Shown: positions 11,920-16,736 of the stretch, one piece after another
Position numbering within the stretch: position 1 is the stretch's first letter
How the letters are laid out: every line of letters begins with the position of its first letter
From: an uncultured Pelagibacteraceae bacterium
Lineage (GTDB): Bacteria > Pseudomonadota > Alphaproteobacteria > Pelagibacterales > Pelagibacteraceae
Direction: 5' to 3'
Assembly: GCA_902597895.1 (NCBI GenBank)
Contig: CACJZM010000006.1
Location: 1 to 45,653, forward strand
DNA: 45,653 nucleotides
Program-made: the position numbers and the translations under genes
The notes under the pieces: generated by a model
The model's input: only the letters and a program-made list of their open reading frames with translations
The model's database searches: none
Told to the model about the DNA's origin: nothing

Positions 11920-12495
11920 ATGAACAGCTACTTACAATCTATTATTGATAGAGATCCTGCAGCAAGGTCAAAGCTAAGTGTAATTCTCACTTACCCAGGG
12001 GTTAAGGCAATTTTTTTATATAAGATTGCTAATTTTTTTTCTGTAGCAAAATTTTATCTAGTGGCAAGAATGATTTCTCAGTTAGCAAGGTTTATTACTG
12101 GGATAGAAATACATCCTGCTGCAAAAATTGGGAAAAATTTATTTATAGATCATGGAATGGGAGTTGTGATTGGAGAAACTTCAGATATTGGAGATAATGT
12201 AACTATTTATCATAATGCTACACTAGGTGGAATTTCACCAAGTATAAATTCAAATGAACAAAGGCATGTAAAAAGACACCCAACTTTAAAAGATAATGTT
12301 GTAGTTGGTTCTGGTGCACAAGTTTTGGGTCCAATTGAAGTTGGAAAGAATGCAAAAATAGGATCAAATGCTGTTGTAACTAAAGATGTTCCTGAAAATG
12401 CAGTTATGATTGGTATACCTGCAAGAAATGTTGGAACCACAACTGAAGAATTTAAACCTTACGCTGTAACTGAAGAAAGTAAGGAAAGTGATTAA
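11920..12495 (+). CDS. cysE: Serine O-acetyltransferase
   Basis: Acetyl-CoA:serine acetyltransferase, 191 aa, the short form. A helical N-terminal domain (1-60) is followed by a left-handed beta-helix of hexapeptide repeats. Active-site histidines are H78 in FIDHGMGVVIGET and H98 in IYHNATLGG; the acetyl-CoA end block GSNAVVTKDVPENA and IPARNVG are present. It makes O-acetylserine for cysteine synthase encoded directly downstream, with which its stop overlaps by one base (TAATG). The C-terminus ends TEESKESD without the usual terminal Ile that inserts into cysteine synthase, so a classic bi-enzyme complex is doubtful. Confidence 0.93.
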   Translation: MNSYLQSIIDRDPAARSKLSVILTYPGVKAIFLYKIANFFSVAKFYLVARMISQLARFITGIEIHPAAKIGKNLFIDHGMGVVIGETSDIGDNVTIYHNATLGGISPSINSNEQRHVKRHPTLKDNVVVGSGAQVLGPIEVGKNAKIGSNAVVTKDVPENAVMIGIPARNVGTTTEEFKPYAVTEESKESD

Positions 12496-13496
12496 TGAAA
12501 AAATATCATAACGATTTTTTACAATCGATAGGTAATACACCACTAATAAAACTTAAAGCAGCCTCTGAGATAACAGGTTGTAATATTTTTGGTAAAGCAG
12601 AATATTTAAATCCTGGTGGATCAGTGAAAGATAGAGCGGCACTTGCGCTTATAAAGGATGCAGAAAATAAAAAATTAATATCTAAGGGTGGAACTATTGT
12701 TGAAGGAACAGCTGGTAATACGGGTATAGGTTTATGCTTACTTGGCAACTCACTTGGTTATAAAACAATTATTGTAATGAATGATAATCAAACACAAGAA
12801 AAAAAAGATACTCTAAAAAATATTGGAGCAGATTTAAGATTAGTGCCTGCAAAGCCTTATAAAGATGATGGTAATTATGTAAAAGTTGCAGGAAGACTAG
12901 CTGAAGAATTAAAAAGTTCTAATAACCATGGTGTCGTTTGGGCAAATCAATTTGACAATACTGCTAATGCTAAAGGTCACTATGAAACAACTGGGCCTGA
13001 AATATGGGAACAAACTGATGGTAAAATTGATGGTTTTGTATGTGCATCAGGAACAGGAGGAACAATTGGAGGAATAAGTTCTTACCTAAAAGAAAAAAAT
13101 AAAAACATTAAAATATATTTATCTGATCCAACTGGTTCTGCACTTTATAATTACATTCAAAACGGTGAATTAAAATCTGAAGGAGGTTCTATTACTGAAG
13201 GAATAGGATCAAGCAGAATAACAAAAAATTTTGCTGAAGCAAAAATAGATGGCGCTTTCTCTATTAGTGATCATGAATCATTACCAATATTATATGATCT
13301 AATTCAAAATGAAGGTTTAAGTCTTGGTACAAGTTGTGGTGTTAATATTGCAGGTGCTATTAAATTGGGTAAAGAGCTAGGTCCTGGAAAAACTATTGTA
13401 ACAATTCTTTGCGATAAGTCAGATAAATACAACTCTAAGATGTTCAATAAATCCTTTTTAAAAGAAAAAGGCCTTCCTTATCCTGATTGGATATAA
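12495..13496 (+). CDS. cysK: Cysteine synthase (O-acetylserine sulfhydrylase)
   Basis: PLP enzyme of fold type II, 333 aa. The Schiff-base Lys is K45 in NPGGSVKDRAAL; the substrate loop EGTAGNTGIGL and the phosphate-binding loop ASGTGGTIGG are intact. It condenses O-acetylserine with sulfide to give cysteine. The start ATG overlaps the cysE stop by one base. The C-terminus extends beyond typical CysK with a segment holding CDKSDKYNSKMFN and ending LPYPDWI, a form seen in the eukaryote/cystathionine-synthase-like branch of the family. Its position beside sulfide oxidation genes implies that sulfide is both a nutrient and a toxicant for this cell. Confidence 0.92.
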   Translation: MKKYHNDFLQSIGNTPLIKLKAASEITGCNIFGKAEYLNPGGSVKDRAALALIKDAENKKLISKGGTIVEGTAGNTGIGLCLLGNSLGYKTIIVMNDNQTQEKKDTLKNIGADLRLVPAKPYKDDGNYVKVAGRLAEELKSSNNHGVVWANQFDNTANAKGHYETTGPEIWEQTDGKIDGFVCASGTGGTIGGISSYLKEKNKNIKIYLSDPTGSALYNYIQNGELKSEGGSITEGIGSSRITKNFAEAKIDGAFSISDHESLPILYDLIQNEGLSLGTSCGVNIAGAIKLGKELGPGKTIVTILCDKSDKYNSKMFNKSFLKEKGLPYPDWI

Positions 13497-13511
13497 TTAC
13501 GCATACCTGAC

Positions 13512-13540
13512 TTGTAACAAATACGTTACAAATTTATGAT
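13512..13540 (+). promoter_or_regulatory. Putative promoter with overlapping operator dyad
   Basis: TTGTAA (13512-13517) as -35 and TATGAT (13535-13540) as -10 are separated by 17 bases. A perfect dyad, TTGTAAC-N6-GTTACAA (13512-13531), covers the -35 and most of the spacer, the position of a repressor operator. The predicted start of transcription is about 33 bases before the ATG at 13580, which has a strong ribosome site AAAGGAG at 13567-13573. The dyad might instead form a weak hairpin after cysK, but it has no T-tract. Confidence 0.55.
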
Positions 13541-13579
13541 ACATTTAAATAGATTAAATTTTCGATAAAGGAGAAAAAA

Positions 13580-13870
13580 ATGGAAAAAGAAATGTTGGTA
13601 TATGTTGATTTAAAAGAAGGTAAGTTAGAAAAATTCATGGGATGGATGCAATCTGATGAAGGAATGAGCGTAAGAAAATCCGCTGCCTATCCAGAAAAAA
13701 CTATTGGAGCAGTAACACCTGATAAAGGTGGAATAATGTTTAAAGTGCATGTTCATAATGTCGATGTAATGAAACAGTTGATATCTGGATCACATCCAGT
13801 TGGAAAATCAGTTTATGACGAGTGTGTAAACAGTATGACTGCTTGGGAATTATCAAAGGTGGAGATGTAA
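13580..13870 (+). CDS. Unrecognised 96-aa protein, first gene of small-gene operon
   Basis: Family not recognised. It is a small soluble protein with no signal peptide, no membrane segment, and a single Cys near the C-terminus (DECVNSM). Alternating beta-like and helical stretches (MLVYVDLKEG, IMFKVHVHNVDVMKQLI) would suit a small ferredoxin-like or dimeric alpha/beta-barrel fold, but that is only an impression. The start has an excellent Shine-Dalgarno sequence (AAAGGAG). Its TAA stop overlaps the ATG of the next gene by one base. Being first after the dyad-bearing promoter, it sets the reading of the whole operon to 16736. Confidence 0.8.
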   Translation: MEKEMLVYVDLKEGKLEKFMGWMQSDEGMSVRKSAAYPEKTIGAVTPDKGGIMFKVHVHNVDVMKQLISGSHPVGKSVYDECVNSMTAWELSKVEM

Positions 13871-14247
13871 TGAAAAAATTATTATTTATTATTTTATCAA
13901 GTTTATTTTTATCAAACATCGCATTAGCGGGTATGTCAGATGCTGACAAAACTAAAGCATGGGATTGCGTGGGTATTTATATGGCTAACTACTTTCTACC
14001 TCCTGGTGAAGAGTTTGAATATGGCATGAAAGAGAAATCTATCTCATCAGCAAAGGTTCTTAAAGAATATGCTCTAGAAATAGGTATCCTAGAAAAAGAT
14101 TGGGATCCTGGAGCTAACAAGGCGGTTGACAAGCATTATGGCTCTAAGTTTGATGAAGCAAAAACAGAGGATTGTCATAAATTTGTAAACTCTACAGTCC
14201 CTAATGGTGAGGAAAGAGTAAAAAAAGTAATACAAACTTTATATTAA
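13870..14247 (+). CDS. Secreted small protein of unknown function with two Cys
   Basis: 125 aa from the ATG at 13870; a longer reading from 13822 is rejected because the coupled ATG directly precedes a clear signal peptide (residues 1-20, ending NIALA). The mature part is about 105 residues with exactly two cysteines, C33 in AWDCVGIY and C102 in TEDCHKFV, plausibly one disulfide. It is otherwise helical and charged, with no recognised domain. It is predicted periplasmic. Translation is coupled to the 96-aa gene (TAATG). The kappa-GST/DsbA-fold protein of the same operon lacks a signal and is not an obvious partner. Confidence 0.8.
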   Translation: MKKLLFIILSSLFLSNIALAGMSDADKTKAWDCVGIYMANYFLPPGEEFEYGMKEKSISSAKVLKEYALEIGILEKDWDPGANKAVDKHYGSKFDEAKTEDCHKFVNSTVPNGEERVKKVIQTLY

Positions 14248-14270
14248 ATATTAAATTTAAAGGAGAAAAT

Positions 14271-14591
14271 ATGTCTATGTTGGAAAAGTACAGTGCTGCT
14301 TTAGCGAATAAAGATGAGGCAGCGATGAATGATCTTTTGCATGATGATTTTAAATTCACGATGCACAAATCAGGAAATGTTTTAACCAAAGGTGATGTTA
14401 TTAAATGGGCGATGAGTGGTGATATTAAACAAGATAAAACAAGAATTGTTTACGAAAACGATGAAATCGGAATACATCATGCATTTGTAACATTCGATGA
14501 TGGAAACGTTGAGGCAGTAATGGCAGTTTATAAATATAAAGATGGAAAAATTGCAAGTTTGGAGACAGGCGCTACTCCAATGCCTAAGTAA
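14271..14591 (+). CDS. NTF2-like/SnoaL-like protein
   Basis: 106 aa, cytoplasmic, no signal. The layout is that of the NTF2-like cone fold: an N-terminal helix (SMLEKYSAALANKDEAAMNDLL) followed by HDDFKFTMHKSG and a beta-sheet half with HHAFVTFDDGNVEAVMAVYKYKDGKI. Members act as small isomerases, hydrolases or ligand carriers; the specific role is unknown. The start is supported by AAAGGAG five bases upstream. It is third in the operon, 23 bases after the secreted protein gene and six bases before the TPR gene. Confidence 0.75.
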   Translation: MSMLEKYSAALANKDEAAMNDLLHDDFKFTMHKSGNVLTKGDVIKWAMSGDIKQDKTRIVYENDEIGIHHAFVTFDDGNVEAVMAVYKYKDGKIASLETGATPMPK

Positions 14592-14597
14592 ATACTT

Positions 14598-15161
14598 TTG
14601 AGAATTAGAATTCAACAATTAATTTTTTTTTTATTAATTATATCTTTTGGAATGACTGGTATCTCTCAGTCAGACCAAAAGAGAGAGTTAGATATTTTAT
14701 TTAAAAATCTAAAATCCATTGGAAGTAGAGCTGCTGCAATGGAAATAGAACAAAAAATCTGGGATATTTGGATCACTCATCCTTCTGATAGGAAACTCAC
14801 TGAAATGTTATCAAAAGGATCAAGCTATATGTCTCAAAATAGATTGGGTGATGCTTATATTATTTTTACAGAAATAATTTCATTAGATAAAAATTGGGCT
14901 GAAGCATGGAATAAGAGAGCTACTGTTCTATATTTAATGGGTGAATTTGAAAAATCTCAAAAAGATATAGATAAAGTTTTAAGTCTAGAAAAAAGACATT
15001 TTGGGGCTTTGTCAGGACAAGGTCTTGTTCAAACAGCCCTTGAAAATTATCAAAAGGCTATTGATAGTTATATAGAAACGCATAAGATATATCCTGCAAT
15101 GGAAACACCTTTGATGATGATAGAAAGATTGAAAATAAAAATTAAAAAAGAAAGTATATGA
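14598..15161 (+). CDS. Exported TPR-repeat protein
   Basis: 187 aa starting at a TTG (no ATG fits the hydrophobic leader). The first 20-25 residues (RIRIQQLIFFLLIISF) are a signal peptide or membrane anchor. Residues about 70-170 form three tetratricopeptide repeats, for example NRLGDAYIIFTEIISLDKNW, AEAWNKRATVLYLMGEFEKS and FGALSGQGLVQTALENYQKA. It probably serves as a periplasmic protein-protein adaptor. Its stop overlaps the start of the next gene (ATGA). The start assignment is moderately sure; TPR identity is clear. Confidence 0.8.
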   Translation: MRIRIQQLIFFLLIISFGMTGISQSDQKRELDILFKNLKSIGSRAAAMEIEQKIWDIWITHPSDRKLTEMLSKGSSYMSQNRLGDAYIIFTEIISLDKNWAEAWNKRATVLYLMGEFEKSQKDIDKVLSLEKRHFGALSGQGLVQTALENYQKAIDSYIETHKIYPAMETPLMMIERLKIKIKKESI

Positions 15162-15547
15162 GCAAAGTTATAAGCTTTGTGATGGTTGGAACAAATGATC
15201 TTGAAAAATCTACTTCGTTTTATGATAAAATTTTAGCAGTTCTCGGACTTAAAAAAGTAACTACAACAGAAAGATATGTTGGATATTCTAATTCTGATGA
15301 TCCAGAAGAAGTAAAATTTTATATAACTAAACCTCACGATAAAAAACCTGCTTCTGTTGGAAACGGAACTATGGTTGCTTTATTGGCTGATACAAATGAA
15401 ATTGTGGACAAATTTCATAAAACCGCTTTAGATTTAGGAGCAACCGATGAGGGAACGCCAGGTATTAGATCTGATGGAAATTACTATGGTTATGTTAGAG
15501 ACCTTGACGGTAATAAGATAACTGCTAAATGCATAGTTTCAAAATGA
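15158..15547 (+). CDS. VOC/glyoxalase-fold protein
   Basis: 129 aa, one vicinal-oxygen-chelate module of two beta-alpha-beta-beta-beta repeats. It opens VISFVMVGTNDLEKSTSFYDKIL and closes DGNYYGYVRDLDGNKITAKC, the usual pattern of bleomycin-resistance/lactoylglutathione-lyase-like proteins. The position normally held by the first metal His is M7/V8 (FVMVGTND), so metal binding as in GloA is uncertain; the C-terminal Glu of typical members (GNKIE) is replaced by T in NKITAKC. Substrate unknown. Coupled to both neighbours by four-base ATGA overlaps. Confidence 0.82.
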   Translation: MSKVISFVMVGTNDLEKSTSFYDKILAVLGLKKVTTTERYVGYSNSDDPEEVKFYITKPHDKKPASVGNGTMVALLADTNEIVDKFHKTALDLGATDEGTPGIRSDGNYYGYVRDLDGNKITAKCIVSK

Positions 15548-16140
15548 GCAATATAGATTTTTATTTTTCAATTGGAAGTACTTACACTTATTTAACTGTA
15601 ACTAGAATTTTAGACGTAGAAAAAAAACATGGAATTAAGTTTAATTGGAAGCCATTTAGTGTAAGAGCAATTATGAAGGAAATGAACAATATTCCATTTC
15701 CAAAAGATAAAAAAAATAAAGTTGATTACATGTGGAGAGATATTGAAAGACGTGCTGAAGGATATGGTTTTTTTGCAAAAACACCAGTGGCCTACCCACT
15801 GACAGAATTCGATTTAGCAAATAGACTTGCAATTCTTGGAATGAAAGATGGCTGGGGTATTGACTATGTTAGATTAACTTACAAAAGATGGTTTCAAGAA
15901 GGTAAAGAACCAGCGACAGAACCTAATATTTCAGAAATATGTACAGAGCTAAAAATTGACAAAGACTCCGTCATATCAAAAGCAAATGAAGATGATATTG
16001 GAAAAGAATACGAGTCTAATACAAATAGTGCTAGAGATCACAAGATATTTGGAAGCCCATCGTTCATAGTTGGTAGTGAAATCTTCTGGGGGGATGATAG
16101 AATGGAAGATGCTATAACTTGGTCGAAAAAAAATGGGTAA
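15544..16140 (+). CDS. DsbA-fold 2-hydroxychromene-2-carboxylate isomerase/kappa-GST-like protein
   Basis: 198 aa from the ATG at 15544, which overlaps the preceding TGA by four bases; an upstream ATG at 15529 is less likely. A thioredoxin-fold strand (NIDFYFSIGSTYTYLT) carries Ser rather than a CxxC, as in kappa GSTs and HCCA isomerases. An alpha-helical insert follows, then the family's cis-Pro block IFGSPSFIVGSEIFWGDDRMED. These enzymes use glutathione, so together with the glyoxalase-fold neighbour it hints at glutathione-conjugate chemistry. Actual chromene substrates are unlikely in this context; the function is inferred only at family level. Confidence 0.88.
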   Translation: MSNIDFYFSIGSTYTYLTVTRILDVEKKHGIKFNWKPFSVRAIMKEMNNIPFPKDKKNKVDYMWRDIERRAEGYGFFAKTPVAYPLTEFDLANRLAILGMKDGWGIDYVRLTYKRWFQEGKEPATEPNISEICTELKIDKDSVISKANEDDIGKEYESNTNSARDHKIFGSPSFIVGSEIFWGDDRMEDAITWSKKNG

Positions 16141-16468
16141 TTATTCAGCTTATTTAATTTTAATCTTAGCTGTCATATTAGGAACAGCTTCAAACGGTTT
16201 CGCAAAGAGTGCTCAAGGTTTTACTATTCTAGTTCCTAGCATTCTAACCGCGATCACTATCGTCGGATGTATGTACACTCTTTCATTAGTAATGAAAACA
16301 CTGCCAGTAGGAATTACTTATGCATCATTTGCAGGACTGTGTATAGTTGCCACATCATTAGTTGGAGTTTATAAATTTAAACAAATACCTGATTTATATA
16401 CCATAATTGGTTTGGCTCTTATTATTGCAGGTGTGTTGATTGTTAACTTGATTGGCAATACATCTTAA
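16133..16468 (+). CDS. SMR-family membrane protein lacking the essential Glu
   Basis: 111 aa, four membrane segments, clearly related to EmrE: position-for-position agreement includes ILA at 11-13, GT at 17-18, Q-G-F at 28-30, P-x-G-I-T-Y near 58-63 and the ending AGVLIVNL. The membrane Glu that binds proton and drug (EmrE E14) is Val here, and the whole protein contains no Glu. With a three-residue insertion after residue 18, EmrE Y60 is conserved as Y63 and W63 is replaced by F66. A proton-coupled drug pump is therefore doubtful; a subunit of a heteromeric SMR pair or a repurposed membrane protein is possible. Overlaps the previous gene by eight bases. Confidence 0.85.
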   Translation: MGNYSAYLILILAVILGTASNGFAKSAQGFTILVPSILTAITIVGCMYTLSLVMKTLPVGITYASFAGLCIVATSLVGVYKFKQIPDLYTIIGLALIIAGVLIVNLIGNTS

Positions 16469-16490
16469 GTATAAGTATAGAGTAGACATA

Positions 16491-16736
16491 ATGTTTAAAA
16501 TAATAATATTTTACGAATTGGTTTTTGTAATTTTCTGGAATGTTTTATATTTCGCAAATGGTGATTTTAATTCTTGGGTTGGAAATCAATTCTTAACAGC
16601 AGCATACACATTTTTAGCAACAATGGCCCTAGGTCTAACAATTGTTTATGTAATGTATATAACTGCAAAATTGTCTGGTTTCTTAGATAAAATTAAAAAT
16701 GTAAAAGATCCTAGAAAAGACGTTGGAAATCAGTAA
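16491..16736 (+). CDS. Small two-segment membrane protein, function unknown
   Basis: 81 aa from the ATG at 16491 (an upstream TTG at 16452 would add 13 residues inside the SMR gene). Two hydrophobic segments: about residues 2-19 (FKIIIFYELVFVIFWNVLY) and 32-56 (FLTAAYTFLATMALGLTIVYVMY). A charged cytoplasmic-type tail follows (DKIKNVKDPRKDVGNQ). No family recognised. It follows the Glu-less SMR gene by 22 bases and could be its partner. Its 3' end overlaps the convergent DUF952 gene tail-to-tail by 26 bases. Confidence 0.7.
   Translation: MFKIIIFYELVFVIFWNVLYFANGDFNSWVGNQFLTAAYTFLATMALGLTIVYVMYITAKLSGFLDKIKNVKDPRKDVGNQ

Follow-up and report, generated by a model that had tools for sequence, protein, structure and literature searches.

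A conserved promoter element with a dyad core precedes a variable operon of small genes in a SAR11 genus

Introduction

What acts at the palindromic site between cysK and the eight-gene operon behind it, and what does that operon respond to? The question arises in a stretch of 45,653 nucleotides from an uncultured Pelagibacteraceae bacterium, which we call the window. The available parts of PMC13198564 describe SAR11 genomes as having few transcriptional regulators. A rare element that is conserved in a genus before a changing operon is a handle: purifying whatever protein occupies these roughly 30 bp would reveal both the regulator and the signal to which a set of uncharacterised small proteins answers. 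The locus is made up as follows.

12495 to 13496, forward strand: cysK (PALP family), upstream of the element
13501 to 13509, forward strand: upstream block GCATAnCwG, here GCATACCTG (element columns 0-8)
13512 to 13531, no strand assigned: dyad TTGTAAC-N6-GTTACAA (genus core TGTAAy-AAA-N3-rTTACA)
13535 to 13540, forward strand: -10 box proposed earlier, TATGAT, good in this genome and less conserved
13540 to 13545, forward strand: conserved -10 box, TACATT (genus TAnnnT; columns 39-44)
13551 to 13553, forward strand: probable transcription start region, about 7 nt past the conserved -10 box and placed from it
13580 to 13870, forward strand: operon gene 1, 96 aa, no Pfam match
13870 to 14247, forward strand: operon gene 2, encoding a small protein whose start resembles a signal peptide by eye, no Pfam match
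14271 to 14591, forward strand: operon gene 3, DUF4440/SnoaL-like (Pfam)
14598 to 15161, forward strand: operon gene 4, TPR protein (Pfam)
15158 to 15547, forward strand: operon gene 5, glyoxalase family (Pfam)
15529 to 16140, forward strand: operon gene 6, DSBA-like (Pfam), which we take to be of the 2-hydroxychromene-2-carboxylate isomerase type
16133 to 16468, forward strand: operon gene 7, small multidrug resistance family (Pfam)
16452 to 16736, forward strand: operon gene 8, small, membrane-like by eye, start uncertain, no Pfam match

Results

The dyad in the window

An earlier note on this DNA had described a perfect dyad between the cysteine genes and the operon, and both points hold: the dyad TTGTAACAAATACGTTACAA occupies 13512-13531, within the 83-nt intergenic region that separates the cysK stop at 13496 from the ATG of operon gene 1 at 13580. 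The exact sequence occurs once in the window and once in the 1,009,563-base, 83%-complete assembly.

On its own the dyad is not beyond chance. Perfect dyads with 7-bp arms and spacers of 0-12 bases number 189 in the window as compared to 120.7 expected from a first-order Markov model (sd 15.3), 18 of the 189 have a spacer of 6, and shuffling the 83-nt intergenic region yields a 7+7 dyad in 16% of cases. The dyad pattern at up to three mismatches gives 7 window matches vs 5.2 expected. The search for further genomic copies that the note had proposed returned no exact copy elsewhere, and at up to two mismatches the genome holds 6 matches vs 8 for the reversed control. In 101 genus genomes, too, matches with two mismatches or fewer did not exceed those of the reversed control, and a genome-wide regulon defined by the dyad alone was rejected. 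What exceeds chance is conservation: we judge the dyad genuine because it is conserved across the genus.

Conservation of the element in the genus

The dyad is the core of a longer element in Pelagibacteraceae (SAR11), GCATAnCwG-N3-TGTAAy-AAA-N3-rTTACATTT...TAnnnT, whose copy in the window spans 13501-13545. We identified cysK in 75 of 101 genus genomes and read 74 of these loci, leaving out one partial match at a contig end (G078). In 48 of the 74, window included, the element stands immediately 3' of the cysK stop, 47 times at three mismatches or fewer from the pattern GCATAnCnG-N3-TGTAAnAAA-N4-TTACA and once (L130) at five; this last locus is counted among the 48, but its genome was scored as element-free in the 47-genome tests below. 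A second set of Pelagibacteraceae cysK loci, from genomes partly overlapping the first, carried the element after cysK in 66 of 80 cases (one of the 80 had no readable stop).

Anywhere in the genome, the pattern at up to three mismatches was found in 80 of 159 genus genomes and in none of 35 genomes from other genera of Pelagibacteraceae; another family of the order gave a single poor match, with three mismatches, in 53 genomes (the three group sizes were counted from the result table). The full element is rare, with one match in most genomes. Pooling the copies with up to four mismatches from 110 loci of the two partly overlapping sets gave 80 distinct 46-mers with the consensus GCATAcCaGnnnTGTAAtAAAannnTTACATTttTannnTAnaaT. 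In the upstream block C1, A2, T3 and C6 are invariant in 46 of 46 distinct copies, and the AAA within the dyad and the TTT behind its right arm are conserved and asymmetric. The conserved blocks together span about -51 to -22. This pattern of conservation identifies the sequence as a genuine genus-level promoter element. We found no description of it in the open-licence literature, including the available parts of PMC9731502, PMC9491525, PMC5069961, PMC9275681, PMC13198564, PMC10538546, and PMC2704228.

The element and the operon behind it

The element is missing directly after cysK in 26 of the 74 loci. In five loci where other genes lie between cysK and the operon, a related copy directly precedes the operon and none follows cysK; these copies differ from the dyad-plus-minus-10 pattern at two (L088), three (L138), or four positions (L092, L099, and L139). 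Because four-mismatch matches turn up elsewhere as well, as in L095, the copies in L092, L099, and L139 lean on their position. A further copy with three mismatches precedes the operon in L373. In L182 there is no cysK upstream, and the copy lies between a gene of the metallo-beta-lactamase fold and the operon. On the other hand, 11 of the 26 loci (L094, L095, L109, L113, L114, L118-L121, L123, and L125) have the operon and no recognisable copy, and in L275 and L288 the first operon gene begins within about 50 nt of cysK without the element. An association with the operon, and not with cysK, has support that is not strong. The earlier note would be refuted by a lack of conservation before orthologous operons, and such a lack is seen in part of the genus: the element stands directly after cysK in 48 of the 74 loci and a related copy before the operon in the five displaced loci, and no copy was recognised in the 11 loci just listed. 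The claim of a promoter control site is borne out by three observations: the element is kept ahead of the orthologous operon in many genus members, related copies remain at the operon when cysK has been separated from it or lost, and three genomes have copies before other genes.

In L109 (the genome of L017), L114, L118-L121, and L125, a reverse gene separates cysK from the operon and another conserved motif, like GCATAnCTGTCGCG-TATAAAC, precedes the operon. TGTAACA stands downstream of this motif in several of the loci.

Behind the element the gene content changes. Of 61 genomes searched for operon gene 1, 21 gave a match, its own among them. The first gene behind the element belongs to one of five families over 47 loci (22, 15, 5, 3, and 2 loci), and the small-gene families occur in 36 orders among 48 loci, some of which are cut by contig ends. 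The families include SnoaL/DUF4440, DUF1330, cupin, DUF3764, glyoxalase, DSBA-like, and small multidrug resistance proteins. By our own grouping, which includes a GYD-like family, the operon at 13580-16736 and its relatives draw on 17 or more small gene families, reshuffled behind a constant promoter.

Copies before other genes

Three genomes (G245, G512, and G113) carry copies of the element before other genes. In G245 (L327:2039-3996) and G512 (L361) the extra copy lies between a gene whose product has two winged-helix-like segments, which it immediately follows, and a BASS transporter gene. Both copies read TGCAAy..rTTGC, a symmetric change at columns 14 and 27 that may be one event; neither keeps the outermost pair, and G245 has lost the innermost as well. 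The G113 copy (L158/L372, C3:42256) is away from cysK, ahead of a formyltransferase-like gene that neighbours an FkbM-like one, both named by eye.

A looser pattern matched 180 of 399 genus genomes, 12 of them at least twice. We read the context of the extra matches in seven of the 12 (G023, G097, G405, G468, G512, G519, and G560), as well as the surroundings of seven matches from further genomes; the extra matches of G337, G342, G394, G498, and G549 were left out. No additional regulated gene appeared in the contexts read. Judged from context, matches between gltD and uppP (L365-L369, L374), between sufA and glnA (L362-L364), and within coding DNA (L370, L371, L375) are unrelated. The gltD/uppP matches, from G023, G097, G118, G252, G405, and G468, mark a recurrent ATGCA/ATGTA...TTGC site between divergent gltD-like and uppP-like genes.

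Promoter geometry

The earlier note had placed the dyad in a good sigma-70 promoter with 17-base spacing. In this genome TTGTAA-17-TATGAT does agree with the sigma-70 consensus at 9 of 12 positions, but the conserved -10 box sits five bases downstream of the one proposed and lacks a good -35 partner. Columns T39, A40, and T44 of the conserved box occur jointly in 69 of the 80 distinct copies, while columns 34-39 (13535-13540) fit TAnnnT in 46 of 80. When -35 hexamers were sought upstream of the conserved -10 box over spacers of 15-19 bp in the 80 copies, the best mean was 2.4 of 6 matches, at spacer 17; in the TTGTAA frame the mean over copies was 3.3 of 6. Because the conserved -10 box lies at 13540-13545, the dyad would cover the -35 position, at about -39 to -22 if the start lies 7 nt after the -10 box.

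Two-fold symmetry

All six positions of the 6-bp arms pair in 45 of the 80 distinct copies, and five or six pair in 58. Pair-state parsimony on a tree built from the cysK of 103 loci gave, at columns 17/24, TA to CG twice, once on the branch of the window, and CG to TA once, amounting to three pair-keeping double changes; columns 16/25 changed jointly from AT to GC once (0.06 expected). When columns 17 and 24 were reconstructed separately, both changed on one branch only (0.44 expected), and column 17 co-changed with several unpaired columns on 2-4 branches. Pair-breaking changes numbered 11 vs the 3 doubles and 3 restorations. In a column-permutation profile test the best inverted centre was 20.5 (p 0.05), and direct repeats of 9-12 bp were not significant in the same test (p 0.35). 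We take these results, with the symmetric change in the BASS-linked copies, as modest support for two-fold recognition of the element.

Candidate regulators

The earlier note had stated that the window encodes no regulator. This stands for most of the window: a Pfam scan (E <= 0.001) found no DNA-binding regulator family in 49 of the 51 open reading frames of at least 90 aa, although four of the 49 had no Pfam match at all and are hence not excluded; the two unscanned frames lie opposite larger genes.

In many relatives the tandem winged-helix gene that adjoins the BASS-linked copies shares a contig with cysK, at a distance of some 16-26 kb; in the assembly of the window it is on another contig. 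As the regulator it was rejected: a match was found in at least 72 of 101 genomes, and among the matches listed in 35 of 47 with the element vs 20 of 27 without (p 1), in a search that weak homologues may have escaped. The protein evolves fast, with 27-82% identity.

The genome of the window also encodes OmpR-type regulators. A PhoB gene closes pstSCAB-phoU-phoB, and there are three more, one of them short and one beside a MarR-type gene. Going by context, we take the one beside the MarR-type gene to be PetR-like and presume another to be ChvI-like. PhoB, PetR-like, and ChvI-like proteins were separated by score class, and all presence counts are among the matches listed.

PhoB occurs in at least 55 of 101 genus genomes. 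Among the matches listed, 27 of the 47 element genomes have it and 20 lack it, as compared to 15 and 12 of the 27 element-free genomes (Fisher p 1), and the 20 absences exceed the 8.7 expected from incompleteness (P 6e-5). G109, 97% complete, carries a zero-mismatch element and has no PhoB among the matches listed, and the element score does not differ between genomes with and without PhoB (p 0.51). PhoB therefore seems not to be required for the element, although another OmpR-family regulator may be involved. The absences are consistent with a patchy distribution of pst-phoB across the 101 genus genomes. The PetR-like protein was absent in 15 of the 47 element genomes among the matches listed (P 0.016), and was set aside as a candidate for this reason. 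The ChvI-like protein was present in 39 of the 47 and absent in 8 among the matches listed; 8.7 absences are expected from incompleteness, and this result says little.

Discussion

A proposed operator of a dimeric regulator

The explanation that we favour, tentatively and at somewhat less than an even chance, is that the dyad is the operator of a homodimeric regulator encoded elsewhere, lying over the -35 position of the promoter that drives the small-gene operon, with the regulator probably a repressor. The homodimer would bind TGTAAy-N6-rTTACA two-fold symmetrically at about -39 to -22, and thereby cover the place of the -35 box just upstream of the -10 box at 13540-13545. Binding would most likely block RNA polymerase, and a ligand linked to the job of the operon would relieve the block. 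The operon content (SnoaL-, cupin-, glyoxalase-, and DUF1330-type proteins and a small multidrug-type exporter) suggests the handling of small reactive or foreign molecules. Conservation, the fixed spacing to the -10 box, and the rarity of the full element are direct observations; the dimeric protein, repression, and the class of ligand are inferred, and repression is preferred to activation from the position of the site alone.

Dimeric repressors of the MarR, TetR, and XRE types can have operators over the -35 position. The element is like these in having two inverted arms of 6-7 bp and a 6-bp spacer, and it differs from them in having no recognised regulator gene adjacent to it. Rare sites usually adjoin their regulator gene. 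In favour of an operator are the conservation of the element, the copies before the operon where cysK is displaced or gone, the pairing of the arms, and the symmetric change in the BASS-linked copies. One point against it is that the conserved -10 box has no good -35 partner, which would fit an activator better than a repressor. Others are the asymmetry of the conserved AAA and TTT, the broken pairs, and the 26 loci that lack the element after cysK. The operator reading is further weakened by the separately reconstructed columns, and because the sequence argument against PhoB, given below, is partly built in.

The earlier note had suggested that the operon perhaps responds to sulfur or redox state; nothing that we found points to either. 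In the available parts of PMC5069961, cysK and cysE are not upregulated in sulfur-limited HTCC1062, an observation on cysK and cysE and not on this operon.

Alternative explanations

A tandem box for a regulator of the PhoB/OmpR family is a close rival to the dimeric operator, and we consider it a serious possibility, if not a likely one. The regulator could be PhoB, the ChvI-like or PetR-like protein, or the short fourth, binding half-sites TGTAAyA and nRTTACA 11 bp apart and activating from -35, with the palindrome incidental; the lack of a good -35 box would suit it. The pstS promoters of the genus carry tandem TKTAAyA half-sites in the form of TGTAACA/TTTAACA direct repeats. Among 36 pstS upstream stretches, 30 fit a class A or class B pattern, and the 13 of class A (TGTAAnAAAnnTTTAAC-N10-TAnnnT) have the same spacing from the first half-site to the -10 box as the element. 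A matrix made from pst-locus sites alone ranked the window element 1st of 91,264 positions, whereas none of 200 column-permuted matrices put it in the top 10, and 22 of 23 distinct genus elements ranked in the top 5 of their own loci. Some copies read TGTCATA (L085, L099), and several displaced copies break the palindrome, their second half-site having AACA or AGCA. Yet it is half-site 1 that carries the pst match (rank 5), whereas half-site 2 alone ranks 2,772 of 91,264. The element has TGTAAyA at the same distance from the -10 box as the class A pstS promoters do, and departs from the pst promoters in a second half-site, rTTACA, that scores poorly in the window. All 80 elements have T at column 26 where the 26 pst training sites have A, a contrast that is partly built in, as those sites were gathered with patterns requiring A at this column. 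The direct-repeat periodicity is not significant, as noted above. The absence of PhoB among the matches listed from 20 of the 47 genomes that keep the element, together with the poor half-site 2, weakens PhoB as the regulator, and the PetR-like absences count against that protein. As for ChvI, a ChvI-like gene is among the matches listed in 39 of the 47 element genomes, but the motifs in the available parts of PMC9731502 and PMC10538546, TTGC-N3-GCAA in Caulobacter and GCC repeats in S. meliloti, are unlike the element. Box 2 of Brucella omp25, in our own reading of the printed sequence, has TGTCA repeats at a spacing other than that of the element.

Two further explanations are less likely. 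The element could be a plain strong core promoter with accidental symmetry, which we regard as improbable. The -10 box is conserved in 69 of 80 copies, shuffled intergenic regions produce such dyads at the frequency given above, and, reconstructed separately, paired columns co-change no more than unpaired ones; but the conserved blocks reach from about -51 to -22 without a sigma-70 -35 match, and a symmetric change is common to both BASS-linked copies. An RNA hairpin, either a weak cysK terminator or a leader element, is very improbable. Its arms could pair ahead of a T-rich stretch, and a fold of -6.7 kcal/mol is obtained for the single copy in the window, but the 80 copies have no consensus fold (0 kcal/mol), no Rfam match rises above the cut-off of a family, and 13300-13700 contains no terminator-like site. 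Nor would a hairpin account for the -10 box that follows at a fixed spacing, for the five loci with a copy before the operon and none after cysK, or for the copy where cysK is gone. With no conserved fold, terminator-like stem, or Rfam family found, it was rejected.

A possible cassette array, and the pst promoters of the genus

If the element is the operator of a dimeric regulator, that regulator might be dedicated to an essentially single target, with the operator fixed, some seventeen or more small gene families shuffled behind it, and the whole forming a cassette array for small-molecule detoxification. We consider this extension rather unlikely. If true, it would be an operator-anchored gene cassette array in one of the most streamlined genomes of the ocean.

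The genus holds two diverged pst-phoB types (L192 upstream of 871; L193-L231), whose PhoB proteins are 60-69% vs 82-100% identical to that of the window's genome. They also differ in the layout of the Pho box, which consists either of two half-sites and a -10 box or of three tandem half-sites. A near-perfect tandem TGTAACA occurs near the end of pstS and the start of pstC at L193:1940, L194 (-) 1866, L195:1893, and L196:1890 (0-based). With its position at the pstS/pstC junction taken from the length of pstS, this is possibly an internal Pho promoter.
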